This document shows, piece by piece, positions 14,729 to 46,000 of a DNA stretch of 64,000 nucleotides. A program made the position numbers and the translations under genes. The first letter of the stretch is position 1. Each line of letters starts with the position of its first letter. Below the pieces are notes generated by a model. It was not told the origin of the DNA and did not search any database. It saw only the letters and a list, made by a program, of their open reading frames with translations. Location of the stretch: the NCBI RefSeq assembly GCF_000244915.1, contig NZ_CM001442.1, positions 4,402,001-4,466,000 of the forward strand. Direction: 5' to 3'. The stretch comes from Bradyrhizobium sp. WSM471 (GTDB lineage: Bacteria > Pseudomonadota > Alphaproteobacteria > Rhizobiales > Xanthobacteraceae).

Positions 14729-14730
14729 GA

Positions 14731-27944: not shown

Positions 27945-28243
27945 AGCTGTTGGTGGACAATAACCTCAGTCCATCGCTTGCACGAAGTTTTCAACCTCTA
28001 TTTGACGAGCATGAATTCGTCGCGCTTCGCGACAAATTCCCGGCAAATACAAAAGACGTTGGTTGGATCTCTGCGCTCGATACCGAAGGCGGTTGGGCCG
28101 CCCTTACGGCAGAGAGGAAGTCGAAAACTCGACCGCATGAGCGCCTCGCGCTCGACCGATCAAACATTGTTTTCTTTTTTCTCACCGGCTCTTGGCTCAA
28201 ATGCTCAGTGCCAGAAATGGCATGGCGCCTCATACGGCTTCTA
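27941..28243 (+). pseudogene. VapC45-like PIN toxin, C-terminus lost
   Basis: The TTG start overlaps the antitoxin stop. The first about 100 residues fit the VapC45 PIN-like family: MKLLVDNNLSPSLARSFQPLF, then VALRDKFPANTKDVGWISAL and NIVFFFLTGSW. The usual catalytic segment SGDRRI is here TAERKSK, so one acidic residue may be altered. After AWRLIRLL (about 28243) homology stops and the frame, still open to 28705, runs into AT-richer unrelated sequence and across the ACP gene. I read this as a truncation at an insertion or deletion junction. The toxin is probably inactive. Confidence 0.65.
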
Positions 28244-28298
28244 GTTTATCATTGCATTTGGATTGTAATTATCTGCCGGAAGAAGGTTTCGATTGTGA

Positions 28299-28664
28299 GT
28301 GCTATTGCTGTCGGCATTGGCTGCAGACTACCGGGATATATCGTCTCGCCAGACGCAGCGGAGTCCGTCCGGAGCGGCCACATTGCGGGATTTGGGGGCA
28401 GCGGCCGAACCGGCGGGCCGCCTTCGCCTGGAGTTCCGACGCACGCCGCCCGTCGAGCGGCCCGCGTTGTTGCGGCATCTGATCATCGAGGATCTCGGTG
28501 TCATCTTGCGCCGCAGAGGGAATCCAGGCCGCGCATTTTGCGATTGCGACCTCGACTCACTCGGGACGCTCCAACTGCTGATCGCACTCGAAGCGGACAC
28601 CGGCATTCGGCTCCCCGCCCGGGACGTGACGACTGTACGCGCACTGGCCGACAAGCTGGGGTGA
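28299..28664 (+). CDS. Polyketide-synthase-type acyl carrier protein (possibly a PKS C-terminal remnant)
   Basis: The C-terminal 70 residues form an acyl carrier domain: RPALLRHLIIEDLGVILRR, then the phosphopantetheine site CDLDSLGTLQLLIAL with Ser as the attachment residue, and LPARDVTTVRALADKLG. The leading VERPALL resembles the linker before the last ACP of modular polyketide synthases. The 121-aa frame begins at a GTG just after a stop, and the first 45 residues look random. It may therefore be the cut-off tail of a PKS or a free-standing ACP. It is 33 bp upstream of the PapA-like gene, as PKS genes often are in mycobacterial lipid loci. Confidence 0.6.
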   Translation: MLLLSALAADYRDISSRQTQRSPSGAATLRDLGAAAEPAGRLRLEFRRTPPVERPALLRHLIIEDLGVILRRRGNPGRAFCDCDLDSLGTLQLLIALEADTGIRLPARDVTTVRALADKLG

Positions 28665-28697
28665 TGCAAGAACTGCATCTGGCCGAAGCAGTTGCCC

Positions 28698-30116
28698 ATG
28701 ACTGATCTGCGTCCGCTGCACGACTGGTCAGGACCTCCTGCGACGCTGACTCTCTGGCGCCCGTCTGCTGCATCAATGGAAAGTGCGAAGCTCGCACCGG
28801 TGTCGCCCGTGTTACCCAGTTACGAACAGGAACAGCATCTGCGCGCCTTCCGCGCGTGTGAGCAGCGGCACGAGTCGATGGCGCGGCTGCTTGTCGTTGT
28901 GTGGGACGAAGCCGGCCGGTGTGACCTCAGGGCCATGACCCATGTCGTGACTGCACATCTGCGTAGGCACGACACTTATCATAGCTGGTTCGAGGAGCGC
29001 GGCGAAGCAATAGTACGACACGTGCTGACCGATCCTGCGGCGATCGAGATGGACTGTTCGACGCTGGGTGAGGTGAGCGCGGAGGATTGGCAAGAGCATG
29101 TCATTGCGACCCCTGCACCGTTCGCGTGGGATTGCTTTCGCTTCGGCGCTCTCCAGCACACAACGGGGTTCACTTGCTTTGCAAGCATTGACCACTTGCA
29201 CGCCGATGCGACCGTTGTCGCGTTCCTGATGGCGGAGATCCGCTCAGCGTATCGCGCTGTGCGCGACGGCCAGACGTCGCTTCAATTCGGTCCGCCGGGG
29301 AGCTATCTAGCTTACTGCAGCAGTCAGCGCCAGCGCGCAGCCGCGACAACGTTAGCGGATCCTGAGGTGAAGGAGTGGATCGCGTTCCTGCATCGCAACG
29401 ATGGGCGGACGCCGTCTTTCGCGTTGCCGCTCGGGGTGCTGGAGGATCGCTATCAGGCCGAGTATGTACACGTGGATGTCCTCGATGATGCCGTCATGGC
29501 CGCGTTCGAGTCCGCATGCCACGCTTCCGGCGCGCGAGTGATCGGCGGCCTGTTGGCCTGCGCGGCCCTGACCGAACGGGAATTGGCTGGGCGCTTGCGC
29601 TACAGTGTTGTCACTCCCACAACGACGCGAAGATCGGCACCGGGTTTCAGGACGACCGGCTGGTGCGTGGGATTGGTGCCCATCGATTTCGAGGTCCAGG
29701 AACGAACGTTTGCGCAACTCGCCTTCACAGCCCAGCGTAACTTTGACGAACGGCGAGGCCTTGCCCACGTGCCGATCGAGCTCGTACTTGAACTCGCCGC
29801 CGGGCTGCCGACGATTCGATCCGTCGCCACAGGTGGCGTCATGCTATCCTATATGGACGCGAACTTTCCTCCGCGCAGTGCGCACGTTGCGCGCGAATTG
29901 CAGCAGGGGAATGGGCGAGGCTATATCAACCAAGGCATGGCCGCGCAGGTTGCGCTCTGGTTCTTCCGTACGCATCGCGGGCTCTCGCTGACGGCGGCTT
30001 ATCCGGCAAACGGGACAGCCCGTGCCTCGATGCACCGGTATGTAAAGACGCTTACGGGCGCATGCCGCCAGGCGGCCGACGCATTGATGCCGACGTACTC
30101 TCATGTCGGCGGTTAA
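28698..30116 (+). CDS. PapA-like acyltransferase (condensation-superfamily)
   Basis: This 472-aa protein resembles the mycobacterial polyketide-associated acyltransferases PapA1, PapA2 and PapA3, which esterify trehalose with long-chain acyl groups. Shared stretches from memory: TLWRPS near the start, HLRRHDTYHSWF, FALPLG, FESACHASGARVIGGLLAC and RRSAPGFRTTGWCVGLVPI. The catalytic HxxxD is H166-D170 (DHLHAD). I chose the ATG at 28698, which places the WRPS segment correctly. An alphaproteobacterial host for this type is unusual. The next gene begins two bases after its stop, so it heads an acyltransferase operon. Confidence 0.85.
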   Translation: MTDLRPLHDWSGPPATLTLWRPSAASMESAKLAPVSPVLPSYEQEQHLRAFRACEQRHESMARLLVVVWDEAGRCDLRAMTHVVTAHLRRHDTYHSWFEERGEAIVRHVLTDPAAIEMDCSTLGEVSAEDWQEHVIATPAPFAWDCFRFGALQHTTGFTCFASIDHLHADATVVAFLMAEIRSAYRAVRDGQTSLQFGPPGSYLAYCSSQRQRAAATTLADPEVKEWIAFLHRNDGRTPSFALPLGVLEDRYQAEYVHVDVLDDAVMAAFESACHASGARVIGGLLACAALTERELAGRLRYSVVTPTTTRRSAPGFRTTGWCVGLVPIDFEVQERTFAQLAFTAQRNFDERRGLAHVPIELVLELAAGLPTIRSVATGGVMLSYMDANFPPRSAHVARELQQGNGRGYINQGMAAQVALWFFRTHRGLSLTAAYPANGTARASMHRYVKTLTGACRQAADALMPTYSHVGG

Positions 30117-30118
30117 CG

Positions 30119-31507
30119 ATGACCCACGCGACGTCTCATCCAGAGAACGTGCCGAACCTGCCGCCGCCCTTCGTGTCTTTCGCGGACCAGGGCATTTACC
30201 TTGCGCATACCTCACTCGGGCAGCATGCGGTCATTCAGGCGCTGTGGCGCTATCTCCGGCCTGTGGACCTGGACGCGCTGACACAGTTCCGCGACAATCT
30301 CGCGCTCGGGCTGCTCGCGCGGCTGATCCGGCCGGCGCTGCTTCCGTTCGGGCGGCACCAATGGGTGAGCGCGCCAGCCCCATCCGCTGCTCTCGCTGTT
30401 GCCGAGGCGCCGCTTGCCCCTGAGGCGATGCAGGCGTGGGCCGACGCGCAGGTGGAGCTTCCCTTGGACCCCGCGCGGGGACCAGCATGGACCTTCACGT
30501 TCCAAACCTTCACCGACGGCTCCACCGTGGTCTCGCTCGTGGTTTCGCACTGCATCTCGGACGGACTGACAGTTTTAACGGCCATCAGCGAAGCCGTGCG
30601 AGGCGTGCAACGGCCGCCACTCTCTCCCGCATGGTCAGTCTGGTCGGCGCGCCGCGCCGCGACAATACTGGGTGCCGAACTCCAACGCATGGTGCGGGAC
30701 ACGCCGGCGACGCTCCGGGCGCTCGCCCAACTGGCCGGTGCGGCATACACCTCGCGCCCCACATACACCGCACCCACCGCGTTGCCAGTCGTGACGATCG
30801 CCGACAACCGGAGAATCGTATTTCCATCGGCCTTCATACGCCTGCCCACATCCCTCTGGGACGCCAGAGCACAGTGCCGCGGTGGGAGCCGGTTCACGCT
30901 CCTGACCGCGGTCACCGCGGCGTTTGCCGAAGCGCTCGGTCGCGTTCGCGATGATAATGTCACCTTGCTGATTCCCGTGAGTGAACGAGCAGGTCTGCCG
31001 CACACCGGCGGGAACGGGGTCGCGCTTGCCACTTTGAAGGTGCGTGTCGGCGAACTGCGAGGGCGCCTGCATACGTTTCAGCGGCGTCTGCGGGCTACGC
31101 TGCTGCGGACGAGACGCGAACCCAATCGACTTGCCGCACTGCTGCCCTTGGTGCCTTTTGTGCCCAGACGCGCATTTTCGGCTGCCACCCGTCTGGCGTT
31201 TGCCGCGCTCGGTGACCTGCCGGTCACCTGTTCCAACTTGGGTCACTGTCCCGAGGGCGTGCTCCGGATCGATGGCGGCGCGGCCGATCGTTTCTGCTTT
31301 CGCGGCATCGACCGTCCGGTCGAGCGGCGCGCGATCGAGGAGCGCCATGGTGTGGCGACCCTCTTCGCAGGCATCATTCCCGGGTTTATCGTCCTGAGCT
31401 TCGTTGCCTACCAGCCCGGCGTGGTAACGAGCCCTCAGCATCTTCGTGCCCTCGTCGAACGCCTCTTGGCTGACTACGAACTCCATGGCGAGTTTTTCGA
31501 TGCTTGA
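30119..31507 (+). CDS. Condensation-superfamily acyltransferase, paralogue 1 of 3
   Basis: At 462 aa this belongs to the CoA-dependent acyltransferase/condensation fold. The HxxxD(G) motif is H144-D148 in VVSHCISDGL. Upstream is PLDPARGPAWTFTFQTFTDGS, and later LPVTCSNLGHCPEG, both shared with the next two paralogues. Length and layout are like bacterial wax ester synthase/diacylglycerol acyltransferases, but the motif is SHxxxDG rather than HHxxxDG. The ATG at 30119 lies two bases after the PapA stop. Substrate unknown; acylation of a lipid or sugar is inferred from the neighbours. Confidence 0.75.
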   Translation: MTHATSHPENVPNLPPPFVSFADQGIYLAHTSLGQHAVIQALWRYLRPVDLDALTQFRDNLALGLLARLIRPALLPFGRHQWVSAPAPSAALAVAEAPLAPEAMQAWADAQVELPLDPARGPAWTFTFQTFTDGSTVVSLVVSHCISDGLTVLTAISEAVRGVQRPPLSPAWSVWSARRAATILGAELQRMVRDTPATLRALAQLAGAAYTSRPTYTAPTALPVVTIADNRRIVFPSAFIRLPTSLWDARAQCRGGSRFTLLTAVTAAFAEALGRVRDDNVTLLIPVSERAGLPHTGGNGVALATLKVRVGELRGRLHTFQRRLRATLLRTRREPNRLAALLPLVPFVPRRAFSAATRLAFAALGDLPVTCSNLGHCPEGVLRIDGGAADRFCFRGIDRPVERRAIEERHGVATLFAGIIPGFIVLSFVAYQPGVVTSPQHLRALVERLLADYELHGEFFDA

Positions 31508-32888
31508 GCCGAGCACGCCCGACGCCCCTGCATACGCGCGGCACCGCCTCGCCTGGGTGGACCAGGTGGCCTACGAATTGTTCAGGGTCACCGGCCGGAG
31601 GCAGTTGATGCAATGCCTCTGGCTCTATGATCGTGACGTGAATCTTGCCCCGCTGGCGCGAACAATTGAACGGCTCTCCGCACTGTCCTTCAATCGGCTC
31701 ATTGAGCCGTCAGCCTTGCCTGGTGGAAGGCCTCGTTGGGTGAAGCCGGCGGAGACGCCCATTCTGCCCGAGCGGAGTTCGGACCTGCTGCCACGATCGC
31801 GGCTCCTGCAGTGGGCTAATCGGCACGCGCGCGCGCCCATAGACCCGGTCATCGGTCCGGGTTGGCGAATGGCCATCCAGCCGTTCGACGATGGCAGCAC
31901 AGCCGTGAGCATCGTCGGATCCCACGTACTCCTCGACGGAATGGGAGCCTTGCGCGCTATCGAGGCTGCTACAAACGGCATCGGCGTCCCGAACCGGTAT
32001 TTGCCTAAAGGCGCCCGCGGGCGGCTGTCCGGGTGCGTGTCGGACGCTTGGCAGATCCTCGCCGACGCTCCGCGCACGATTGCCGCACTCGCTCAGAGCG
32101 CGCACGCGTACTGGTACAGGCCCTCCGCCTCTCTACAGAGGCCGGCGGTTACTGCCGCCGAACCGGGTCATGACCCATCAACGATCGTCGAGCTTCCGGC
32201 TGTCGCGGTCACTGTTGAATCGCGTGCCTGGTTCGCGTGCGAGCAGCGGCTGGGGGGCGGCTTGAATACGCTGCTGCCGGGCTTCGTAGCGTCGCTCGCG
32301 TCGACTCTCGGCAGGCGCCGTTTCTCCGACGGCGCTATCAGCCTGCTTGTTCCCATAAACCGAAGGCGTGGGCTGGAGGACGAACGAGCGCTGGCGATCG
32401 AATTCCATATGATGAACATCGCGCCTGCAGGCCTGACCACCGACCTGCGGCCCGTGAATGCGCCGCTCAAGGCGCTTCTTCGCGGTGCGAAGAACAATCC
32501 GACCGCCGCACTGCTTTCGTCCCTGCCGGCGATCGCCTGGATGCCGCGCACGGCCGCGAAGATGCTCGTGAACCGGGTGTTCAATTATGGCGGTGAGCTG
32601 CCAGTAAGCTGTTCCGACCTGGGAATGCTGCCGGGCGGGCTCGCGCGCATAGACGGCGCGCCGTGCCGCCATGTGCTGACACGAGCGGTGGATGTCAACG
32701 TCACGCGCCAAGACCTGGAGCGCTCCCACGGTCATCTCGTTGTTGTGGCCTCGCGTTTCGAGAAGACCATTTCCCTCTGCATCGAGGCCTGCCAGTTGGA
32801 ACCAACGCCAACCACGACCGACGAACTTCGTCGCGTGACCTCCCTGATACTCGCCGACTTCGGACTCGATGCGATCATTGAGGCCTGA
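31500..32888 (+). CDS. Condensation-superfamily acyltransferase, paralogue 2 of 3
   Basis: Also 462 aa, this starts at an ATG at 31500 that overlaps the previous stop by eight bases. Its active-site motif is H142-D146 in VGSHVLLDGMG. The shared framework is IDPVIGPGWRMAIQPFDDGS, and LPVSCSDLGMLPGGLARIDG near residue 370. A helical insertion (DAWQILADAPRTIAALAQSA) parallels one in paralogue 1. The close length and tandem layout indicate gene duplication, yet sequence divergence is high, so separate acceptor or acyl specificities are likely. Confidence 0.75.
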   Translation: MLEPSTPDAPAYARHRLAWVDQVAYELFRVTGRRQLMQCLWLYDRDVNLAPLARTIERLSALSFNRLIEPSALPGGRPRWVKPAETPILPERSSDLLPRSRLLQWANRHARAPIDPVIGPGWRMAIQPFDDGSTAVSIVGSHVLLDGMGALRAIEAATNGIGVPNRYLPKGARGRLSGCVSDAWQILADAPRTIAALAQSAHAYWYRPSASLQRPAVTAAEPGHDPSTIVELPAVAVTVESRAWFACEQRLGGGLNTLLPGFVASLASTLGRRRFSDGAISLLVPINRRRGLEDERALAIEFHMMNIAPAGLTTDLRPVNAPLKALLRGAKNNPTAALLSSLPAIAWMPRTAAKMLVNRVFNYGGELPVSCSDLGMLPGGLARIDGAPCRHVLTRAVDVNVTRQDLERSHGHLVVVASRFEKTISLCIEACQLEPTPTTTDELRRVTSLILADFGLDAIIEA

Positions 32889-33292
32889 CGCTTTGGGGCT
32901 GCCTTTCGACAAGCGACTGACAAGCCGATAGCGTAGTCAGAGATCGTTTTTTCGTGCTGCGGCAATTCCTGCGCTCTGAAGGTACGACAACTTTTTAGCC
33001 TGATAGCGTCTGAGGTTCGTGATCCCGCATCCGACTTGTCCCGACCGATTGCGACTGCTCGACCGCCACACCACCGATCTGCTCGACAACCGCCCGAGCC
33101 CACGCGCACGCGCGACCTGCGTTTTCATCGTTGCCAACGCTCTCGCCTGCTGGCAAAGGGTGATGCCGTGCGGTGGCTCCCGGAGACCGGGCTGTCGGGA
33201 ACACGCGGCGCGCAGCGTTCGTACATCGCCTGGAATTACCGGCCTTGATGCGGCAATCTCATCGTGCAGCTAAGAGACAGGGGGCTCAAGAA
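32889..33292. other. Gap between acyltransferase paralogues 2 and 3
   Basis: Two overlapping plus-strand frames span 33019-33273 but show no family pattern. The gap breaks an otherwise tightly packed operon, so a gene may have been lost here. An agggggctc lies about 10 bases before the GTG of the next gene. Confidence 0.4.
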
Positions 33293-34672
33293 GTGAACCC
33301 TTCCTCTGCCAACAAGTTGCGGGAACGCCGCGGCGGGGCCGGCGACGCCGGCGCAGATGACGTGCTGTGCTATATGGACCAAGGCTCATTCGTTGGATTG
33401 CGCGCGCTCGGACGCGGGCCAGCGCTGCAGATCACCTGGTTATATCCCCACCCGATCGATGAAGCCGCCGTGAGACAGTTCAGCGAGCGCCTCGCACGAG
33501 GGTTGCTAGGACGCCTCCTGCAGCGTTCACCATTGCCATGGGGGCGGCACCGTTGGGTGGCCAACCCTGTGCCGGGCCCAGTGACATGGTTTCGCGACCC
33601 GCTCCCCAATGAGAGGCTGCTTGAGTTGCGCCGTATGCTGCTCGATTTACCTGTGGATCCCGAGCGCGGACCAGGTTGGCGCCTGGCCGTCCAAGCGCTT
33701 GAGGACGGTGGCTGCGCGCTGACCATGCTGGTGTCGCACACGATCGCTGACATGCAAGCCACCAATCTGGCCATCGCTGACGCGGTGGCTGGACGACATG
33801 CCGACCATGGACTCCCAGCCCCGTCCTGGCGCTGGTCTCCAGTGATGCTGGCGCGCGACGGTGTTGAGAGCTTACGCGCCCTGCCTGGCGTTTGGCGCGC
33901 TCTGGTGGCTCTCGTGCGGCGGTCGCGCAATGGGAGCGCGGGCGTGTCGCGTCCGAGCTCCCGCGCTCGAACCAGCCACGATCACTTTGAGCCGGCAGCG
34001 GATGTGCCACTTGTTGAGGTGGTCATGGACGCAGCGGCTTGCCAACAGCGCGCGTCGGATCTGGGCGTGGCAAGCAACACGCTGATCGTGGCGTTCGCAG
34101 CACGGATCGCTTTCCGGGTGGGCCGCGTGGACGCCTCAGGACGGGCGAAGCTGGTGCTGCCGGTCAGCGACCGCCGTTCAGATGACCGGCGCGGCAACGC
34201 GCTGCGGTCGATCACAGTGATGGCGGACCCCGAGGCTTGCCGCAAGGATCCGCGCGGCTTACAGCGAGATCTCAAGGCTGCGCTGGCCTCGCTGATCCGG
34301 CACGGCGATGATCTGTCGCCGCTGTTTCCGCTGATTCCGTATGTGCCGCTGTGGCTGGTGCGTCGTCTGGAGCGGGAGGCGCTCGGCGCGGGCCTGCCCG
34401 TTGGCTGTAGCCTGGTAGGCGAGTTGCCGCTGGACGTGAACCGCCCCTGCGGCGAGGCATTGCTTCTGCAACTCTCCATTCTGGAGCACTACACGGTCCC
34501 GGACCTCCAAAGGCTGGGCGGCGTGCTATTCATCGGGTGCTACCGTCTCGGTGAACGGCTTTGCTTTACCGTGTCCGGCTACGTGCCAGACGGCGCAACG
34601 ACACGCGCCGAATTGGCACCATTGGTGCGCGATGCGCTCGCGGACATGGGCCTGTGCGGGACGGTCAGTTGA
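33293..34672 (+). CDS. Condensation-superfamily acyltransferase, paralogue 3 of 3
   Basis: With the GTG at 33293 this is 459 aa, matching its paralogues; an ATG at 33248 is an alternative. The motif is H149-D153 in LVSHTIADMQ, so the glycine after Asp is replaced by Met. The framework VDPERGPGWRLAVQALEDGG and LPVGCSLVGELP is conserved with the other two. The loss of the glycine might affect activity, but His and Asp are intact. It is the last plus-strand gene before the convergent exporter operon. Confidence 0.75.
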   Translation: MNPSSANKLRERRGGAGDAGADDVLCYMDQGSFVGLRALGRGPALQITWLYPHPIDEAAVRQFSERLARGLLGRLLQRSPLPWGRHRWVANPVPGPVTWFRDPLPNERLLELRRMLLDLPVDPERGPGWRLAVQALEDGGCALTMLVSHTIADMQATNLAIADAVAGRHADHGLPAPSWRWSPVMLARDGVESLRALPGVWRALVALVRRSRNGSAGVSRPSSRARTSHDHFEPAADVPLVEVVMDAAACQQRASDLGVASNTLIVAFAARIAFRVGRVDASGRAKLVLPVSDRRSDDRRGNALRSITVMADPEACRKDPRGLQRDLKAALASLIRHGDDLSPLFPLIPYVPLWLVRRLEREALGAGLPVGCSLVGELPLDVNRPCGEALLLQLSILEHYTVPDLQRLGGVLFIGCYRLGERLCFTVSGYVPDGATTRAELAPLVRDALADMGLCGTVS

Positions 34673-34805
34673 CGATAACGGATAAACAAGAGGGGACGTT
34701 GCATCCTTGGCCAAGACTTGGCGCAACGGAAGGTGGGGCTTGACCGATTAACTGTTGCCGAGCACCAAGGTGCACCGCATGCCGGCCAAAGCGGCTGCCG
34801 AACAC

Positions 34806-35972
34806 TCAAGCGACGCGTAGCGCGTCAACGATCTTCATGCGGGCGGCCCGTACAGCCGGCAGGAATCCGCCGAGAAAGCCCATCACAAGCGCGAAGACGA
34901 GCGACCGCAGCACGATCCCGGGCGTCAGGACAAACCGAAATGCGAGCTCGGAGAGCGACGTCCAGTTGAGCGTCGTTATCTTCACCTGCATCATGAGCGA
35001 TGCGAACGAAAGCCCCACCACCCAGCCGACGAGCGCGAGCAGCAGCGCCTCGACAAGGAAAGCCATGAGGATCCGCGAGCGCCGAAATCCGAGCGCGCGC
35101 AGGACCCCGACCTCCACCATGCGGCTGGCGACGGCCGCGTACATCGTTATCGTCGCGCCAATGACCGCGCCCAGTGAGAACATCACCGAGAGCGTGATCC
35201 CGAGCAGCCGAATGAACCCGGAGAGCAGGCGGGACTGCTCCTCATAGAAGACGCGCTCGCGTTTGGCTTGGATGGTAAGGCGGGGATCCGATTCGAGGCG
35301 CGCCTTGAGCGCATCAAAGCTGGAGCGATCAGCGAGGCGCACCGTGACCGAGGAGAAAAAGTCTCGCCGAAACGACTGCATGAGCTGCTCGTTATCGCAC
35401 CAGATCTCGGAGTCGAACCCGCTGCCCCCCGCGTCGAACCGGCCTACGATCTTCCAGTCGCGGTGAGCGAACCTGAGGCTTGATCCAATCTCGAGGTCTT
35501 CGAAACGCCCCGCGAGCGCTCCGCCCATTACGATCTCGTCCGATCCCGGGCGAAACATGCGTCCCTCCGCGAGCCGCACCTGCGGACGCACAGCCAGAAC
35601 GGCTGGACCAACGCCGCGGACCAAAATGTTGCTCGCCTGTTTGGTCTTGCTTCTTGGCCGCGCGATCAGCACAGCCACTTCCTTCGATACGAGCGGCGCG
35701 CCTTCGGCCCCGATGATCACCTCGGGCTGGCTTTCGATGATCCTGGCCTGCAGACGGTCGATCAGGCTCTGGATCTCGACTTCCGCGGAGCGGCGTACGA
35801 AAATGACGTTCGTGTCCTCGCCGGTGGCGACGAGAGTTCGCTTGAGTCCGGAGTCAAGCATGAGCACGGCAGCGTAGACAAACACCACAAGGGCCATGCC
35901 TGTCGCGGTGAGAAAATTGGTGAATTTGCGCATCTGCAGGTTGCGCCAGCTGTAGGCGAGCAGCAACGGCAT
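34806..35972 (-). CDS. ABC exporter permease, FtsX/MacB type (second)
   Basis: This 388-aa membrane protein has one N-terminal helix (NFLTATGMALVVFVYAAVLML), a periplasmic domain of about 220 residues, and three C-terminal helices with the FtsX-core motif VEVGVLRALGFRRSRILMAFLVEALLLAL. It is the last gene of the four-gene exporter operon, starting two bases after the stop of the first permease. Two different permeases next to one ATPase suggest a heterodimeric channel, as opposed to the single MacB polypeptide. Confidence 0.9.
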   Translation of the reverse strand: MPLLLAYSWRNLQMRKFTNFLTATGMALVVFVYAAVLMLDSGLKRTLVATGEDTNVIFVRRSAEVEIQSLIDRLQARIIESQPEVIIGAEGAPLVSKEVAVLIARPRSKTKQASNILVRGVGPAVLAVRPQVRLAEGRMFRPGSDEIVMGGALAGRFEDLEIGSSLRFAHRDWKIVGRFDAGGSGFDSEIWCDNEQLMQSFRRDFFSSVTVRLADRSSFDALKARLESDPRLTIQAKRERVFYEEQSRLLSGFIRLLGITLSVMFSLGAVIGATITMYAAVASRMVEVGVLRALGFRRSRILMAFLVEALLLALVGWVVGLSFASLMMQVKITTLNWTSLSELAFRFVLTPGIVLRSLVFALVMGFLGGFLPAVRAARMKIVDALRVA

Positions 35973-35974
35973 GT

Positions 35975-37135
35975 TCAGCCCAACGCCCGAAGACCATTGA
36001 CGATGCTGACACGTGCTGCCCGGTGCATTGGAAATACCGCGGCGAGGGCCCCGACCACCAAGGCCGAAAGTGCCTGCAACATGACAGTGCTGACGCTCAC
36101 GATCAGTGCTGGGAAGAGCGTCGCGGAGAGTACGGCCAGGTGCGCGGCAACCGGGGGCGTGAGCCCGATAGCGATCGCGCCACCGATCGATGCTATCACG
36201 ACGGATTCGCCAAGGATCAATCGTGCCACGTAGCCGGGGCTGAAGCCAATGGCCTTCAGCGTTGCATACTCGCGGAGTCGCTCGCGCGCCGTCATCGCCA
36301 TTGTGTTTGCCATAACGGACAAGATTATAAAGATAACCACGAATGAGACGATCCGAATGGAAATGAGCATCGCTTCGGTCTGCTTCACGAAGCCGATCTG
36401 GAAAGTGCGCTCAGTCTCGGTGAGCGTCTCGGCAAACGAGTTCCGGAACACTGCGTCGATTGCCTGACTGACTTCCGCGACGCGGTCAATGCTGACGACG
36501 TCCACGACGAAGAACCCAACCTGGTCAGCCTGTGCCTTGGAACGCACACGGAGTGTTTCGTTCAGGTAATCCCAGCGGAAGTAAAGATGCGAGGTGTCGG
36601 TTTTAGGGTCTCGGCCGTCAAAGACGCCATCGATCACGAACTCCCAGTTACCGGGGAAAATCGTCCCGCGTAGCTGAATCACATTGCCTGGCTTGAAGCC
36701 GTAGCGGTCGGCGAGTTTGCGTCCTACGATCGCGCCGCGGCGGTCGCGCAGGAAGGCGCGCCGTACCTCGTCCGAAACGAGGATCTCGGGGTGCATATCG
36801 AGATAGCTCGCGGCGTCGATCGCAAACTGCGGGAAGAAATTCTTCGGATCCTTGTAGATGCCGCCGAACCAGTTCATGTAGGTGATGCGTCGCACGCCGT
36901 CGACAGCGCTTATGCGCTTGTGATATGCTTGTGGCAGCGGCAGTGCGAAAGACATGGCGTTGCGGGTCAGCAGCCGCGAAGGAACGGCGCCATTAACCCC
37001 CGCGTACCACGTGTCGACGACGGTCTGGAGCACACCAAAGGCGAGAATCGCAACAACGAGCCCGAAGAGCGTCAGTGACGTGCGGAGCCGGTGGCGCAAG
37101 ACGTTGCGCGCCACGAGCTTGAGCCATTGGCTCAT
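35975..37135 (-). CDS. ABC exporter permease, FtsX/MacB type (first)
   Basis: At 386 aa this has the same plan as its partner: an N-terminal helix (RTSLTLFGLVVAILAFGVLQ), a large extracytoplasmic domain and three C-terminal helices with REYATLKAIGFSPGYVARLILGESVVIA. I chose the ATG at 37135; a GTG at 37144 directly abutting the ATPase stop is possible. With HlyD and the ATPase it resembles MacAB or cyanobacterial DevBCA, which exports heterocyst glycolipids. Confidence 0.9.
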   Translation of the reverse strand: MSQWLKLVARNVLRHRLRTSLTLFGLVVAILAFGVLQTVVDTWYAGVNGAVPSRLLTRNAMSFALPLPQAYHKRISAVDGVRRITYMNWFGGIYKDPKNFFPQFAIDAASYLDMHPEILVSDEVRRAFLRDRRGAIVGRKLADRYGFKPGNVIQLRGTIFPGNWEFVIDGVFDGRDPKTDTSHLYFRWDYLNETLRVRSKAQADQVGFFVVDVVSIDRVAEVSQAIDAVFRNSFAETLTETERTFQIGFVKQTEAMLISIRIVSFVVIFIILSVMANTMAMTARERLREYATLKAIGFSPGYVARLILGESVVIASIGGAIAIGLTPPVAAHLAVLSATLFPALIVSVSTVMLQALSALVVGALAAVFPMHRAARVSIVNGLRALG

Positions 37136-37144
37136 CGCTGGCAC

Positions 37145-37876
37145 TCACTCAAGGCGCTGCTCCACCAGGTAAGAAAGCTCGCCCTTCTCCAGATGCATGA
37201 TGCGCTTCGCATGCGCCGCCGCGCGGCCATCATGGGTCACCATCACGATCGTCTTGCCCATCTCGCGGTTCAACCGCTGCATAATTCCAAGCACCTCCTC
37301 CGCGGACTGCCGGTCAAGGTCGCCCGTCGGCTCGTCGGCCACCAGCATCGTCGGGTCGGTGACGATCGCCCGCGCGATCGCCACGCGTTGCTGCTGTCCG
37401 CCCGAGAGTTCCGAGGGCAAATGTTTGACGCGATCGCTCAGGCCAACGAGACTGAGCGCGAGTTGCGCGCGGTCTCGGCGTTCGCGCCGCCTTAGGCCGG
37501 TGAGCGTGAGAGGCAACTCGACGTTCTCCAGCGCTGTGAGCACAGGCATCAGATTGTAGAATTGGAATATGAAGCCCACGTTCGCCGCGCGCCAGTCAGC
37601 GAGATCGGCTTCCGGGAGGCGCGTGATGTCCTCGCCACCCACCTTGATCGAGCCGTGATCTGGACTGTCGATGCCGGCGATCAGGTTGAGCAGTGTCGAC
37701 TTGCCCGATCCGGACGGGCCCATCAAAGCGAGGAACTCGTTACAACGGATGTCGAATGTGAATTTAGAAAGGACCGGGACGATCTGCCCACCGCGCCGGT
37801 AGCCCTTGCTGACGTCGCGCAGCGCGATGAGCACATCTTCCCCGGTCGGCGCCTCGGAGACGCCAGTTATGCTCAC
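37145..37876 (-). CDS. ABC exporter ATPase, MacB/LolD type
   Basis: This 243-aa nucleotide-binding subunit has Walker [10 protein letters not shown], the Q-loop [21 protein letters not shown] typical of the LolD/MacB group, the signature [14 protein letters not shown], Walker [13 protein letters not shown] and the H-loop VTHD. It powers export through the two permeases. The GTG start at 37876 overlaps the HlyD stop by four bases, indicating coupling. Confidence 0.95.
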
Positions 37877-39123
37877 TTCGTGGCCTGCTTGACTGCGCGC
37901 CCATCAACAAGATCCTCCGGCGGTCGGATCACCACTCGTGTGCCGGCCTTTAGGTCACGTACCTCGATCTGGTCGCCCACCTTCATACCGAGATCCACAG
38001 GCTGCAGACGGGCTTTGCCATTCTCGACGACGTAGACCTGCTGTCGTCCACCCTCCTCAACGACGGCCGCCATCGGCACTGCAAGAATAGGCTTGCGCTC
38101 TGACTCGGCGAGTTCACGATCGAGGAAGGCCACCTTTGCGCTCATTTCCGGAAGCATCCGCGAGTCGCGCTGCTTGAACCGGATCTTCACGAGGGTTGAC
38201 GCCTTGGCGCGATCCACAGTTGGGACCATCCGGCTAACCACGCCCTCGAAGCGCTCGGCGGGGATAGCGTCCAGCTGGATCTCCACCGGTTGCCCCACAT
38301 GGATGCTCAGGTACGACGACTCCGCCACGTCGGCCTCCACTTCAAGCGAGTCCATGTCGGCAATGGTGACGACCGCGCCCTTGGTGTCGACCGCCTGCGA
38401 GAACGGTGTGATCGTGTCGCCTACGTTGGCGTGCCGCGTGAGGACAACGCCGTCGAAGGGCGCTCGGATAAGGGTCTGGCCGACGGCAACGTCGGACACA
38501 CGGAGATTGGCTTGCGCAGCGGCGATGGCGGCCCCGTAACCGGCAAACGCTGCTCGCGCCTTGGCGAGGCGTGCCTCAGCGGTTTCGCGCGTCGAGTCGC
38601 TTATGATGTTCTTCTCGCCGAGGGCCTCGGAGCGCCTGAACGCGATTTCCGCTTGGGTGAGCTCCGCCCGCCCCTGGGCGAGGTTGGCTTCCGCAACCTG
38701 CACGTTAGCGGCTGCCTGGTCGCGCATCGCCTGCGTGTCGCTGCTCTCGAGCCGGGCGATCACCTCACCCTCCTGCACCTTGCTGCCTTCGAGTACGCCC
38801 AGCCACTCGAGACGGCCTGTCGCCTTCGAGGCGACGGATGCCTTGCGTTGCGCAACGACGTACCCGGTCGCGTTCAACAGCGTCAATGCTTGTGATGGAT
38901 AGACGGAGTAGATGACCGCCGTCTCGACGACGATCTGCGCATGCCGGCGCCACGCCCACGTTCCGACCCCAATGCCGACAAGCATGGCGAGGAGAAGTAC
39001 CCGCACCAGGATGCGGCGCAATCGGCTGCGGCGCCCCGAGCCGGCGCTACGGTCGATCGCTAGCGCGGATAGATCGGAGGCGGCGGGTACGCCATCGCTC
39101 AGGGTTTGGGGCAGAGACATCAT
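37873..39123 (-). CDS. HlyD/MacA-type periplasmic adaptor protein
   Basis: This membrane fusion protein of 416 aa links the inner-membrane exporter to the outer membrane. A cytoplasmic lead of about 50 residues precedes one helix (RRILVRVLLLAMLVGIGVG). Then come the lipoyl-like half (GRLEWLGVLEGSKVQEGEVIARLE), a helical hairpin rich in Ala/Glu (AEANLAQGRAELTQAEIAFRR), the second half (VGQTLIRAPFDGVVLTRHANVG) and a beta-barrel domain. The start is one of two adjacent ATGs (39123/39120). Divergent from the glycosyltransferase gene, it heads the exporter operon. Confidence 0.92.
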   Translation of the reverse strand: MMSLPQTLSDGVPAASDLSALAIDRSAGSGRRSRLRRILVRVLLLAMLVGIGVGTWAWRRHAQIVVETAVIYSVYPSQALTLLNATGYVVAQRKASVASKATGRLEWLGVLEGSKVQEGEVIARLESSDTQAMRDQAAANVQVAEANLAQGRAELTQAEIAFRRSEALGEKNIISDSTRETAEARLAKARAAFAGYGAAIAAAQANLRVSDVAVGQTLIRAPFDGVVLTRHANVGDTITPFSQAVDTKGAVVTIADMDSLEVEADVAESSYLSIHVGQPVEIQLDAIPAERFEGVVSRMVPTVDRAKASTLVKIRFKQRDSRMLPEMSAKVAFLDRELAESERKPILAVPMAAVVEEGGRQQVYVVENGKARLQPVDLGMKVGDQIEVRDLKAGTRVVIRPPEDLVDGRAVKQATK

Positions 39124-39231
39124 TTTATCATCAATTTCCGAGCAATCCGCGCAGACTATGAAGAAAATATCTCGTTGAGAAAGCCGTAAGCCATGCGCTG
39201 GACGACTGTCAATTAGCATTAAAGGCGGCTC

Positions 39232-39261
39232 TTGACATCCACGTGTTCTGCTCTTCTCTAA
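39232..39261 (+). promoter_or_regulatory. Candidate promoter for the glycosyltransferase gene
   Basis: The 213-bp gap between divergent HlyD and glycosyltransferase genes contains cttgac (39231-39236), the alphaproteobacterial -35 form, followed about 17-18 bp later by tctcta/ctctaa, a weak -10. It lies about 75 bp ahead of the inferred start at 39337. Confidence 0.35.
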
Positions 39262-39336
39262 GCTCTGAAACAAGCCGACGGCGCCCACACCAAAGCGATT
39301 GCTATGACTTGAAACTGCGAAAACCGGAGCGCGATT

Positions 39337-40578
39337 ATTAAGTTCACCGTCGCAGTGCACGGGACACGGGGAGACATCGAACCCGCCGCTGCCGTTGCAC
39401 GCGAGTTGCAGCGCCGCGGTCATGAGATCAACATGGCCGTGCCTCCCAATCTCGTTGGGTTCGCTGAGTCGGCTGGCTTATCTTCGGTGGATTCTTACGG
39501 CCCGGATTCCCAACAGCAACTAGAGGCGGAGATTTTCCACGACTGGTTCAAGTTGCGCAATCCCATCAAGGTCCTGCGGCAGGCTCGAGAGTACCTCACC
39601 AACGGCTGGGCCGAAATGAGCGAGACTCTCACCAGGCTGGCAGTCGGCTCTGATTTGATACTCAGCGGAACGACTTATCAAGAGGTCGCCGGCAATGTGG
39701 CCGAGGCCCAAGGGGTCCCCCTTGCCGCCCTGCATTACTTCCCCGTCAGGGCGAATAATCACATGCTGCCGGTTCAATTGCCCCCGAGTTTGATCGAGCC
39801 CTTGTGGTCAGTCGCCGAGTGGTCGCACTGGCGCCTATTGAAGCCGGCCTACGATGAACAGCGTCAGACCTTGGGACTTCCGGAGTCCAAAATTCGTGCC
39901 GTGCGCCGACTCGTCGCCTATGGCGCGCTGGAGATTCAAGCCTACGACAAGGTGTTCTTTCCCGGGCTTGAGGAGCAATGGGGCTGGAAGAGACCTTTGG
40001 TCGGCGCGATGACCCTGGAATCCGCCACGCATTCCGACGCGTCCGTGCGTTCCTGGATCGGAGCTGACCGCCCGCCAATTTACTTCGGGTTCGGCAGCAT
40101 GCCGGTCGACAAACCGGCCGAGACCATTGCGCTGATCATAAACACGTGTCGGGAGCTCGGCGAACGCGCGCTGATCTGTTCGGGAGTCTTGCGCCTTGAA
40201 GGCAGAACTCCCACGAAGGACGCCATGATGGTGCCTTCGGTCAACCACGCCGAGTTCTTACCGCGCTGCCGGGCCATCGTTCACCATGGCGGCGCCGGCA
40301 CCACTGCCGCCAGCGTGCGATCCGGCGTCCCAACTCTTGTGCTCTGGGTGGGCGCCGACCAGCCGGTGTGGGCTACACAGATCAAACGCCTGGGGGTCGG
40401 CACCTCGCGTCGTTTCTCCACCATGACGCGGGAGACCCTTCACGATGACCTGCGGACCGTTCTCGGGTCACGATGCGCCGCTCGGGCGCGCGAGGTGGGC
40501 AATCAGATGACACCGCCGACCCAGAGCCTGACAACTACCGTAGCCCTCCTCGAACGGCTGGCCGCTAAGCGCGCGTGA
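39337..40578 (+). CDS. Glycosyltransferase of the mycobacterial glycolipid type (GT1), probable AUU start
   Basis: This 413-aa GT-B enzyme matches mycobacterial glycolipid transferases such as Rv2962c and the GPL gtf genes: AVHGTRGDIEPAAAVARELQRRG, HEINMAVPPNLVGFAESAGL, WAEMSETLTRLA, PPIYFGFGSMPVDKP and the nucleotide-sugar box AIVHHGGAGTTAASVRSGVPT. Homologues start M-K-F; here the corresponding codon is ATT at 39337 (ATT AAG TTC), seven bases after ggag (39326-39329). The first standard start, GTG at 39355, would delete the first beta strand and has no ribosome site. So either AUU is used, as in infC, or a start mutation has occurred. Confidence 0.88.
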   Translation: MKFTVAVHGTRGDIEPAAAVARELQRRGHEINMAVPPNLVGFAESAGLSSVDSYGPDSQQQLEAEIFHDWFKLRNPIKVLRQAREYLTNGWAEMSETLTRLAVGSDLILSGTTYQEVAGNVAEAQGVPLAALHYFPVRANNHMLPVQLPPSLIEPLWSVAEWSHWRLLKPAYDEQRQTLGLPESKIRAVRRLVAYGALEIQAYDKVFFPGLEEQWGWKRPLVGAMTLESATHSDASVRSWIGADRPPIYFGFGSMPVDKPAETIALIINTCRELGERALICSGVLRLEGRTPTKDAMMVPSVNHAEFLPRCRAIVHHGGAGTTAASVRSGVPTLVLWVGADQPVWATQIKRLGVGTSRRFSTMTRETLHDDLRTVLGSRCAARAREVGNQMTPPTQSLTTTVALLERLAAKRA

Positions 40579-40635
40579 TGTCTGCCTGTACCTCGCCGAA
40601 TGAGCAGCAGGCCGGACGCGAGCGAACAGGAGGGA

Positions 40636-40801: not shown

Positions 40802-41743
40802 CTAAGCGGAAACGACGTCGAAGCTTTGCTCATCGTCGTTCGCGCGCATACCGTCGAGGACCGACAGCGCCGGATCCGTCAAGGGAACGTGGTGGTCCTG
40901 GTCCTTCATTCGTTCGCCGGGGATTTTCCAGGTCGAGCCCGGCCGATCGATCTCAGACCAATGCGCTTCGACCGCCTCGTTGGTGCGACACCCCGCGAGG
41001 ATTAAGAAGCGCAGCATGGCAGCGGCAGTTCCGGGCGCGCCGGCAAGGAGCTTCATGAAGGCCGGCGCTTCGGAATAAGGCAACGCCGGATGATGCCGAA
41101 CCACCCGCTTGGCTCGTTTTGGCAGCTTCTCGCGCAACTGCCTTGTGATCTCTGCCGGATTACGGAAGTCCGGATCGTCGATATCGACGTTCTTCGCAAT
41201 GATCGTTTCAATTCGGCCGCGGACGCGGTTCGCAGTCTCGCGCTTCTCTACCCAGATTGGCTTCAGAAGGTCGTGGATGTGACTCGGTTTGATCTCCGGG
41301 ATGGTCAGCTTGCCGATGGTGGGATAAGCGTAGCGCTTGAGCGAGGACGGCCACTGGTCGCGATGCTTCTCGCTCCAGGTCGACCAGTTCGTCCGGATGT
41401 AGGCTTCCGCGCACTCCTCGAAAGTCGATAACGCCTCTTTTGTTTCGACGGCTTTCGTTTCTTCGCGTTCCTTTCGCCTCTCCTGGACGATGTCCACGCC
41501 AGCGGTGCTACGATCGCCTCTCACGCGCAGACGGGCTGCATCTCGGGCCAGCCGCGCATCCCTTAACGACACATCCTTGAACGAGCCGAGGCCGTGCCAA
41601 CGCTCCTTGCCGTCTTTCCAATATCGATAGGACCAGCTCTTCGAGGTCGGTCCGTTGACGATCAACTAGAGACCCCCGCCGTCGGCATATTTGCCGGGCT
41701 TGTCTTGGCGCTCAGCGTCAAGTGGTTTCAGTCTTCCAGCCAT
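40802..41743 (-). pseudogene. Tyrosine integrase (P4-like) pseudogene next to tRNA-Ser
   Basis: The original start is the ATG at 41743 with ggaggaacg upstream, giving MAGRLKPLDAERQDKPGKYAD, the DUF4102 N-terminal domain. At 41666-41668 an in-frame TAG replaces the Tyr of the conserved GLYL motif. Reading resumes LIVNGPTSKSWSYRYWKDGKE and continues to the first catalytic Arg (LAGCRTNEAVEAHWSEID). It then ends at QSFDVVSA, lacking the H-x-x-R and the nucleophilic Tyr. It thus has both a nonsense codon and loss of about 100 C-terminal residues. Frame starts after the TAG (TTG 41665) could give only a fragment. Confidence 0.9.
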
Positions 41744-41904: not shown

Positions 41905-41994
41905 TGGCGGAAGGGGTGGGATTCGAACCCACGGTACCCTTGCGGGCACGCCGGTTTTCAAGACCGGTGCCTTAAACCACTCGGCCACCCTTCC
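41905..41994 (-). tRNA. tRNA-Ser (anticodon UGA)
   Basis: On the minus strand the gene begins GGAAGGGTGGCCGAGTGG and ends CCCTTCC-G-CCA. The acceptor stem pairs GGAAGGG with CCCTTCC. The anticodon arm ACCGGTCTTGAAAACCGG has the loop CTTGAAA with anticodon TGA. A long variable arm (GCGTGCCCGCAAGGGTACC) is typical of serine tRNAs, and the T arm has GGTTCGAATCC. CCA is encoded. Its 3' end faces the integrase pseudogene. Confidence 0.97.
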
Positions 41995-43033: not shown

Positions 43034-46000
43034 ATGCATCATCGACCAGTGTCACGGCGCCACCAGCGCGCCTTGAGCGGGAAGCTCGGCCTCGGCAACA
43101 GGCGCGCCCTGCTCGCCAGCACGGCCTTCACGGGCGCATTCATTGCCGTCATTGCCGGGCATCCCGGCAGCGCGCTCGCCGCCTGCGCCGTCACGGTGGG
43201 TCCCAACACAGTCACCTGCAACAGCACCGTCACGACCAACACCACGAATACCGACGCCGCAACGGCGTCGTCAGTCGACCGCTCGCAGGCATTCAGCGCG
43301 GGGCCCGTGAGCGCCACGATCAATCCGGGCCAGACGGTCAGCGGTTATGGACTTGCGATCAGCGCGAACGGTGCCGGCATCAACGTCGTCAACAACGGCG
43401 CCGTGACCACGACCCAGGCCGTGCACGCGCTCGACATCAGCACCAGCACCGGGAACATCGTTTATTCGGGCAACGGCAGCGCCAGCAATACGGCCGGCTC
43501 CGGCATCGGCCTCAACATGAACACCAACGGGGCCGGCACCATCACGATGGGGACGAGCGGAACTCCCGTCACGCCGAACTTCCAGGGATCGACGGCCATG
43601 CAGCTCATCGCGGCCAGCTCGATCAACATGACCCTGAACGGAGGCTCGCTGACGACGCTGTCGTCCTTCGGCGATGGCGCCCTGATCAGCGGCGGGGACG
43701 TCTCCGTCGCACTGACCGGCAACGGCGCCATCGTCAACGCGAGCGGCGCTACCGCGGCCAGAGGTCTCGACGTCTTCGGCACCGGGACCATGACCGTGAC
43801 GTCGAATGCGACCATCGGCGGCGCCAGCGCCGCCACGTCGTTCGGCACCGGCATCCTCGCGATAGCGACCGCCGGCAGCGGCGACGTCACAGTCAATCAG
43901 ACCGGTGGCACGATCTTCGCGACAAACTTCGGCATCAACGCGAGCAGCGGCGCCACGGGATCGGGCTCCGTCATCGTCAACACGGCGTCCGGCAGCGCGA
44001 TCGCGCTCACCGATCCGGCGGCGAGCGGCATCGACGCCAGCACGAACGGCACCGGTGCCGTGACCGTGCACCAGGCTGGCGCGATCACGGGCGGCGCCCT
44101 CGGCATCAATGCCGTGATCTTCAACGCCGCCAATTCTCGCGACATCACCGTCACGAGCAGCGGCACGGTCGATGCTACATTCACAGGCATCAACGCCGTC
44201 ACCGCGGGAGCCGGCAACATCAACATCATGACCTCAAGCACGATCAACGGCCCCTTCGGCGGCGGCATCGTCGCAAACGCGGTAGACGGCCGCATCACCG
44301 TGAACGTGAATGCCGGCACCGTCCGCGGCAGCGCCGCCGGCTTTCTCGCCCCAGGCATCGCGGCGACCGCATCCGGCAGCGGCGGCGCCACCATCAACAT
44401 CGCGGCGGGCGCGACCGTCACCGGGTCTCAGTTCGAGGGCATCACGGTCAGCGGCACGAACAACGTGATCAACAATTTCGGCACCATCAGCGGATTCGGC
44501 GGTGTCCGTGCCACCGGCGCGACCACGATCGTCAATGCCGGCACGATCGCGAGTTTTTCCGAGGGGGTCCGGTTCGATAGCGCCGGCAGCACGTTGGAGA
44601 TGCAAGGACCCAACGCCACTCTCACCGGCCAGGTCGTCGGCAGCGGCTCCGATACGATCCGTTTCTCCGGCACCGGCTCCAACACATTCGATGCTAGCCA
44701 GATCGACGCCGGCTGGGGGCTGATCGACAAGACAGGCTCCTCGAATTGGGCGCTGACCGGAACGTCGACGACAACCGCATTCGTGACGGTCAACGGCGGA
44801 ACCTTGTCGGTCAACGGCGACATCAGCTCGACCGGCGGCGTCACGGTGAATGCCGGCGCCACGCTGGGCGGGATCGGCACGGTGTCGTCCACCATCATCA
44901 ATGCCGGCGGCTCGCTTGCGCCCGGCAACTCGATCGGCACGCTCACGGTGAGCGGTAATCTGACCTTCGCCGGCGGCGGCAATTACGTGGTCGAGGTCTC
45001 GCCGGCCACGGCGGATCGCACCAACGTGACCGGCAACGCGACGCTCGCCGGCACGCTCCGCGCCATCGGCACCGGGGGAACCTACACGCCGGGCACGCAC
45101 TACACCGTCATGAATGCAGCAGGCACGCTCAGCGGCAGCTTCGGCGCGCTGGCGATCTCGGGCAATTTCGGCGTTACGCGGCCGCACGTCGAATACGACG
45201 CCAACAACGTCTATCTCGTGCTTGATCAGGCGCTCGTCTCGCCCTTCCTGATCAACGGCACCCGCAACCAGGTCGCGACGGCGGGAGCGGTTGATGCCGC
45301 TTTCCTCGGCGGCAGCGGCGCATTCTCGGCGCTGATTGGCTTGACCTCGCCGCAACTCAACGCCGCGCTGGATCAGCTTTCGGGCGAGGTGCACGCCTCG
45401 ACGGTCGGCACGCTGGCGAATGACAGCCTGGCGATGCGCGGCGCGATCCTGGGACGGCTGCGGCAGGCCTCGTATGGAGGCGACATCGACTCCATGGCCG
45501 CGCTGTCGTTCGGCGGATCGCAGACCGCGTTCGCCGCATACGCGATGGAGAGCGCACTCGCCTACGGCAAATCGCCGATTGTGACGAAGGCGCCGATGGC
45601 GCCGCCGCGAGCGATCTCCGACACCGTGTTCTGGGCCCAGGGATTGGGCGCCTGGGGCACTTTCAATGGCGATGGCAATGCAGCCAGCGTGCGGCGGGAT
45701 CTTGCCGGCTACATCAGCGGCTTCGACACCCGCGTCGGCGGTACTGGTCGCCTCGGCATGGCGGCGGGCTATACCGGCAGCAAGAACACGCTTGACGGCC
45801 GCGGCGCCTCCAACGTCGACACCGCCCACATCGCCGGCTACGGCGGATGGCGGTTCGGCAGCATCAACCTGCGCGGCGGCGGCGCCTATGCGTTCCACAC
45901 GATCGACACCGATCGGCTGGTGAACATCGTCGGCTTCGCTGATCGCCTGACCTCACGGACTGACGGCAGCACCGGGCAGATCTTCGGCGAGATCGGCTAC

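Follow-up and report, generated by a model that had tools for sequence, protein, structure and literature searches.

We describe a 12.4 kb cassette of acyltransferase, glycosyltransferase and exporter genes in Bradyrhizobium sp. WSM471. It lies in a stretch of 64,000 nucleotides of contig NZ_CM001442.1 (positions 4,402,001 to 4,466,000, forward strand), hereafter the window, whose own numbering is used throughout. The genome of this strain, which belongs to the genus Bradyrhizobium, is a single contig of 7.78 Mb. A preliminary description, made from the sequence alone, had read the region as a mycobacterial-style cluster for the synthesis and secretion of an acylated glycolipid. All the coding frames that it listed are present where it placed them, and in Pfam and NCBIfam the gene families stand broadly as it gave them (a PP-binding stub, a Condensation/PapA protein, ABC_tran, FtsX/MacB permeases, a HlyD adaptor and a GT1/EryCIII-like glycosyltransferase). 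Several of its gene starts had to be moved (PapA to about 28698, the acyltransferase AT1 to about 30122 and the adaptor probably to about 39123), and the start of the glycosyltransferase is uncertain.

The cassette occupies positions 28241..40621, has genes on both strands, and is the region held in common with Bradyrhizobium sp. strain AT1 (locus L009, 8182-20242), with 95.6-97.2% identity by blastn. Its boundaries are sharp. Outside 28241-40621 the window gave no match (blastn, E<=1e-20) to the available flanks of L009 (8.2 kb on the left and 1.2 kb on the right) or of the other compared Bradyrhizobium loci (about 2.3 and 1.2 kb, longer for L092-L097, L101 and L102). The only flank sharing among these loci was that of L011, which has about 630 bp in common with L013 and with L019. 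A short integrase frame (40802-41665) lies 180 bp beyond the cassette end, beside a tRNA-Ser gene (41905-41994); its catalytic domain match covers only positions 7-80 of a 172-position profile and is below cut-off, and two other integrase domains score above theirs. Frame and tRNA gene are a probable remnant of a genomic island. A plasmid-borne cassette was also considered: three plasmid records matched, each covering at most 1% of the cassette, and an AT1 query of the plasmid collection gave a single partial match, from Tsukamurella.

Deletion of the polyketide synthase in WSM471

The cassette opens on the plus strand with the two ends of a polyketide synthase (PKS) gene. Positions 28242..28356 hold the leader and the first ~22 codons, at 85% identity to positions 2315-2433 of the B. 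cajani locus (L010), whose 2,091-residue PKS begins at 2369. Positions 28358..28664 match L010 from 8293 and encode the C-terminal remnant, an acyl carrier protein (ACP) domain with a DSL motif (Pfam PP-binding, E 1.1e-6). From 28358 onward the window corresponds to the last 350 bases of the B. cajani gene, the intervening 5.86 kb are absent, and the ACP is read in a different frame from the PKS start. A PKS-type ACP gene had been described at 28299-28664; the PP-binding domain is indeed there, but it is the surviving 3' end (the stump) of a deleted type I PKS gene. A stand-alone ACP gene is ruled out by the matches to the start and end of the B. cajani PKS, by the frame change and by a neutral-like dN/dS (below), and the active PKS/ACP that had been supposed for WSM471 is gone with the deletion.

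Strain AT1 carries the same deletion, with an additional frameshift that breaks up its stump. Since the junction is the same in both, the PKS was probably lost once, in their common ancestor; that the PKS-less state is a loss follows from the stump that remains. A full-length PKS is found in 11 of the 13 Bradyrhizobium genomes with the cassette, the exceptions being WSM471 and strain AT1, and in the other Bradyrhizobium cassette loci that we read, PapA is immediately preceded by a synthase of ~2,091-2,107 residues. The AT1 gene tree places the PKS-bearing L010 beside the PKS-less pair (support 90), and the PapA tree leaves the order open. The B. cajani synthase has the domain order KS-AT-DH-ER-KR-ACP and reaches 2626.6 bits with the NCBIfam Pks2 (phthioceranic acid synthase) model, above its cut-off of 2400. 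The best match to a Pks2/MAS-type PKS in the WSM471 genome is the stump itself (residues 1974-2078), and no other Pks2-like synthase was found there. A second such enzyme acting in trans was accordingly rejected, the genome giving, beyond the stump, only single-domain matches.

Synthesis genes of actinobacterial type

The PapA gene (28698..30116, plus strand; open reading frame (ORF) from 28692, likely ATG 28698) encodes a Pfam Condensation protein with an HLHAD motif. The only solved relative found is M. tuberculosis PapA2 (6aef), matched over residues 6-468 at E 1.8e-101 with a conserved catalytic HxxxD (H168/D172 align with H166/D170), so that the PapA-like acyltransferase of the preliminary description can be specified as PapA2-type. 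In related loci PapA adjoins a type I PKS, of which the window keeps only the stump. Three more HxxxD acyltransferase genes follow on the same strand: AT1 (30122..31507, SHCISDG; ORF from 30062, likely ATG 30122), AT2 (31446..32888, SHVLLDG; start uncertain) and AT3 (33173..34672, SHTIADM; true start probably later, near 33280). They are paralogues, as had been proposed, by their motifs and by the 33% (AT2) and 34% (AT3) identity to AT1. None has a Pfam match, and only AT1 reaches the wax synthase model TIGR02946, at 25 bits against a cut-off of 309.95, which falls short of a wax synthase/diacylglycerol acyltransferase (WS/DGAT) assignment. The AlphaFold2 model of AT1 (pLDDT 82.7) has the fold of condensation (C) domains, WS/DGAT and PapA5; on this predicted fold AT1 is a condensation-domain-like acyltransferase.

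Both in type and in order, these genes are mycobacterial. Orthologues of AT1-3 occur in actinobacterial, mostly mycobacterial, PapA loci, and the order PKS-PapA-AT1-AT2 is common to the Bradyrhizobium and mycobacterial loci. Of 37 actinobacterial loci, 32 have two or more AT paralogues behind PapA, and 23 have a full-length PKS (several others end at contig ends). AT1, AT2 and AT3 are each orthologous across phyla: in the paralogue tree, built from 60 rows (the window and a chosen subset of 23 of the 50 loci), each alphaproteobacterial set forms a single clade (SH-aLRT 100) that nests among actinobacterial sequences, which suggests transfer from Actinobacteria. PapA, AT and glycosyltransferase matches of 250 residues or less were left out of the trees, and set A1 comprised the query and 22 chosen matches from the best 120 of 148 proteins. 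A recent transfer from a mycobacterium to Bradyrhizobium is unsupported, with AT1 identity of only 33-41%; this points to an old event or an unsampled donor. AT-family genes were detected in 200 of 248 sampled genomes of the genus of M. litorale (L022) (profile A3, E<=1e-100, any paralogue), compared with 13 of 265 Bradyrhizobium genomes for a single-protein query.

Some contigs carry doubtful labels. Three assigned to Bifidobacterium breve metagenome-assembled genomes (MAGs; L024, L029 and L032) bear mycobacterial-type clusters, and protein P0013 of a 'Gammaproteobacteria' MAG is 96% identical to AT1; all of these contigs are probably mis-binned. A hydrophobic protein of ~440 residues, X440, is encoded in the PKS-free cluster of the alphaproteobacterial MAG locus L016 (3104-4426, minus strand) and in ten mycobacterial loci (in L040, at 14495-15838). 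Nine aligned copies are 37-44% identical, with conserved SYY..DY..GF.RRGLAG and DYHDWVC. The two copies scanned had no Pfam or NCBIfam match, and no copy was found in 7 genomes searched, none of them a positive control.

A proteobacterial exporter

The exporter genes lie on the minus strand: permease B (34806..35972) and permease A (35975..37144), both of MacB-core/FtsX type in Pfam; an ATP-binding cassette (ABC) ATPase of LolD/MacB type (37145..37876; Pfam ABC_tran, LolD 227 bits with a cut-off of 307.75, MacB 219.6, DevA 210.1); and a MacA-like periplasmic adaptor (37873..39123; ORF to 39423, with 39123 our choice of the likely start). The adaptor passes the general model TIGR01730 (179.9 bits, cut-off 94.9). 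The HlyD-type adaptor, ATPase and two permeases named earlier are thus all present. Their assignment to DevBCA did not hold, with DevA at 210.1 of 295.8 bits, DevB at 58.4 of 129 and DevC at 34.9 of 290.35 (permease B) in an NCBIfam scan of the adaptor, ATPase and permease B. The likeness to tripartite MacAB exporters extends to all components, but here the ATPase is not fused to a permease, the two permeases differ from each other, and the scores are below the MacAB equivalog cut-offs as well (MacA 114.4 of 342; MacB 219.6 for the ATPase and 49.3 for permease B, of 966). Judged by these sequence matches, the exporter is nearest to the MacA/MacB/LolD types. Relatives of permease B named with an organism, among the best 120 of 7996 matches, come from Bradyrhizobium, Aestuariivirga and Burkholderiales. 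The exporter is proteobacterial; in its place the two mycobacterial loci examined have MMPL.

The glycosyltransferase and its start

The last gene (39337..40578, plus strand) encodes a GT1-family glycosyltransferase (Pfam EryCIII-like_C, Glyco_transf_28). An in-frame stop lies just upstream in the window and in L009, so that translation would begin at AUU 39337 or at GTG 39355, the first standard start after the stop. The AUU stands 7 bases after GGAG (39326-39340), at the position where homologues have methionine. This position is an isoleucine codon (ATT, ATC or ATA) in all eight Bradyrhizobium loci with that N-terminus, and ATG, TTG or GTG in L018 and in the 6 actinobacterial relatives read, out of 17 actinobacterial loci having the gene. 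In L012, L014 and L015 the frame stays open up to a standard start farther upstream. From these codons, a non-AUG start is possible. Of 14 Bradyrhizobium records, 7 have the gene intact; in the other seven (L010, L011, L013, L019, L027, G066 and G107) it is lost or truncated, and PapA, AT1-3 and the exporter genes are still found.

Relatives of the glycosyltransferase named with an organism, among the best 120 of 4205 matches, belong to Bradyrhizobium or Mycobacterium/Mycolicibacterium. The mycobacterial type claimed for it is supported; as its context, trehalose-based lipids fit better than glycopeptidolipids (GPL) and phenolic glycolipids (see below). The protein also matches several drug-modifying models, all under cut-off (rifamycin glycosyltransferase, 117.1 of 800 bits). 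An alternative is an ordinary small-molecule operon, in which C-domain acyltransferases, a glycosyltransferase of macrolide type and a MacAB pump would alter some secondary metabolite or toxic compound and expel it; we regard this as very improbable.

Occurrence and continuing selection

PapA, AT1-3, both permeases, the ATPase and the adaptor were found in 17 of 17 alphaproteobacterial records (14 from Bradyrhizobium, one of these a Bradyrhizobiaceae MAG, and 3 other MAGs), scored by tblastn coverage, in which some adaptor and AT matches hold stops or fall into several pieces, mostly where the over-long frame starts of the window are matched. The cassette is not a chance neighbourhood. Of these records, 12 have a full-length PKS, 8 an intact glycosyltransferase and 2 otsA/otsB. 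As a single-protein query, AT1 was found in 13 of 265 Bradyrhizobium genomes, including that of WSM471, and in 1 of 385 genomes of a class-wide alphaproteobacterial sample, which was again WSM471. A search of 60 relatives returned, beyond G000 and G016, only a weak match (E 6.2e-4) that falls within a G017 frame of 5710 residues. The preliminary description would have been undermined by ordinary alphaproteobacterial best matches or by genes that never co-occur; AT1 is instead rare in the class, and the core genes stand together in every record.

Between the window and L009, both PKS-less, dN/dS is 0.11 for PapA, 0.33 for AT1, 0.42 for AT2, 0.30 for AT3, 0.10 for permease B, 0.30 for permease A, 0.09 for the ATPase, 0.12 for the adaptor and 0.22 for the glycosyltransferase. 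The ACP stump, at 0.67, is indistinguishable from neutral (p 0.23). Each of the nine remaining genes falls below the neutral expectation with p 0.0015 or less, a value computed from a neutral non-synonymous fraction of 0.73 that ignores transition bias; allowing for this bias would raise the p values, above all those of AT2 and permease A. By this substitution pattern the nine non-PKS genes are still under purifying selection.

These values bear on whether the cassette is a dying relic that has made nothing useful since the PKS was lost, its genes merely not yet decayed. Such a view would account for the missing PKS, the frameshifted stump in strain AT1, the patchy occurrence, and a glycosyltransferase that lacks a standard codon at its conserved start and is so often lost. 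It sits poorly with the nine genes that remain below the neutral expectation between two PKS-less lineages while the adjoining stump does not, with the window's frames for PapA, the ATs and the exporter, which are open from end to end, and with the PKS-free clusters of three other alphaproteobacterial MAGs. We consider a relic unlikely.

A putative acyl-trehalose pathway

Two of these MAG clusters, L016 and L017, come from different families and have otsA and otsB beside PapA. Their genomes (G963, 100% complete, and G777, 99%) have no GT20 match besides this otsA, and no Pks2-like PKS was found in them. This is our main argument for a trehalose acceptor and for operation without a PKS. Because otsAB lie inside two related clusters, trehalose-based lipids (lipooligosaccharides (LOS), di- and polyacyltrehaloses (DAT/PAT), trehalose polyphleates (TPP) and sulfolipid) also fit better than phenolic glycolipids or GPL. 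The third PKS-free cluster, L018, likewise has no PKS among its genes.

The same enzymes might instead acylate and export another sugar, a sugar alcohol or a hopanoid-type headgroup. In PMC6996325, PapA2 is docked with palmitoyl-CoA, and residues P171, T307, T324 and S384 sit beside trehalose-2-sulfate; as we read the alignment, only S384 is retained in the window's PapA, and the other three differ. Together with the rarity of in-cluster otsAB and the sub-threshold drug-modifying matches of the glycosyltransferase, this speaks for a different acceptor. It is countered by PapA2 being the only solved relative, over its full length, by otsAB being built into clusters of two families, and by at least one OtsA gene in all 8 genomes searched, including that of WSM471. 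A non-trehalose acceptor thus seems improbable to us.

We favour, with modest confidence, an acquired actinobacterial acyl-glycolipid module joined to a proteobacterial MacAB-type exporter, which has lost its PKS here and runs on ordinary acyl-CoA. PapA would acylate trehalose first, AT1-3 would attach further acyl chains, and the glycosyltransferase would decorate the acylated sugar. The adaptor, ATPase and two permeases would then carry the lipid across the periplasm to the outer membrane, much as MmpL exports LOS/DAT/TPP-type acyl-trehaloses in mycobacteria. In the ancestral cassette a Pks2-type, methyl-branched chain would have been supplied to PapA; after the deletion the donor may be an ordinary acyl-CoA derived from fatty acid synthase, as the PKS-free alphaproteobacterial versions appear to use. 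The step order is borrowed from the sulfolipid-1 (SL-1), DAT/PAT and LOS pathways, as set out in PMC6996325, PMC7261415 and PMC4183827.

By analogy, the cassette would work like an LOS or acyl-trehalose pathway and may belong with them. The LOS loci (pks5-papA4) likewise combine a PKS and a PapA with a glycosyltransferase, as would fit a trehalose that is both acylated and glycosylated; the cassette differs in having no MmpL or acyl-AMP ligase and a single glycosyltransferase. Loss of a pks5-pap segment by deletion is reported for mycobacterial LOS loci in PMC7261415. With SL-1, DAT/PAT and TPP the cassette shares a Pks2-type PKS beside PapA (in related loci), HxxxD acyltransferases and a dedicated exporter. 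SL-1 is made by Pks2, PapA2/PapA1 and Chp1 with MmpL8, and DAT/PAT by PapA3 and Chp2 with MmpL10. Unlike these pathways, the cassette has a glycosyltransferase, a MacAB-type rather than MmpL exporter, and three extra C-domain-like acyltransferases in the place of Chp1/Chp2 or PE; in WSM471 it also has no PKS. Also close are loci of Mycolicibacterium (for example M. litorale L022 and M. setense L040), with orthologues in the same PKS-PapA-AT-AT order (PKS 51-56% identical to that of B. cajani; AT1 33-41% and glycosyltransferase 54-66% to those of the window). Where Bradyrhizobium carries the ABC exporter, L021 and L040 have MMPL transporters, L040 together with a fatty-acyl-AMP ligase. We know of no product for these loci.

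Several observations weigh against the pathway that we favour. At some of the forks on which the nesting of AT1 and AT2 depends, support is below 95%, and the PapA tree brings long branches together. The cassette is rare and patchy (the 13 of 265 genomes above), the selection estimates carry the bias noted with them, and PapA keeps only one of the four docked residues. In-cluster otsAB occur in only 2 of 17 records, neither from Bradyrhizobium, and the L018 genome has other PKS genes, with 34-41% identity over part of their length. In the cassette the domain scans found neither MmpL nor any gene for acyl activation, such as an acyl-AMP ligase. The glycosyltransferase is intact in half of the Bradyrhizobium records and has a non-ATG codon in all eight starts read, so that glycosylation may be weak or dispensable.

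PKS/PapA acyl-trehaloses are regarded as a hallmark of the envelope of mycobacteria. More tentatively than the reading above, and with real doubt, we propose that an acyl-trehalose pathway moved from Actinobacteria to Alphaproteobacteria, exchanged MmpL for a MacAB-type pump suited to a lipopolysaccharide outer membrane, shed its PKS in some lineages including WSM471 and came to use ordinary fatty acids, yielding an unrecognised class of rhizobial surface glycolipid. A search of titles and abstract openings in the open-licence PMC literature turned up no paper that describes acyl-trehalose or PapA-type lipids from Bradyrhizobium or any other alphaproteobacterium, which is weak evidence of absence. 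If the proposal is correct, such a pathway can pass between envelope types by an exporter swap, rhizobia may have a new surface lipid, and PapA-type chemistry gains a harmless Gram-negative host for its study. The natural PKS-minus lineage offers a direct test of a PapA/acyltransferase set without its polyketide.

Neighbouring genes

Two further features of the window lie outside the cassette. Beyond the tRNA-Ser gene, positions 43034-46444 encode a large autotransporter of 1136 residues (beta-domain E 1.3e-58), and on the other side, at 21628-23805, a fusion of a phospholipase D-like protein with a VTT membrane domain adjoins an endonuclease/exonuclease/phosphatase gene.

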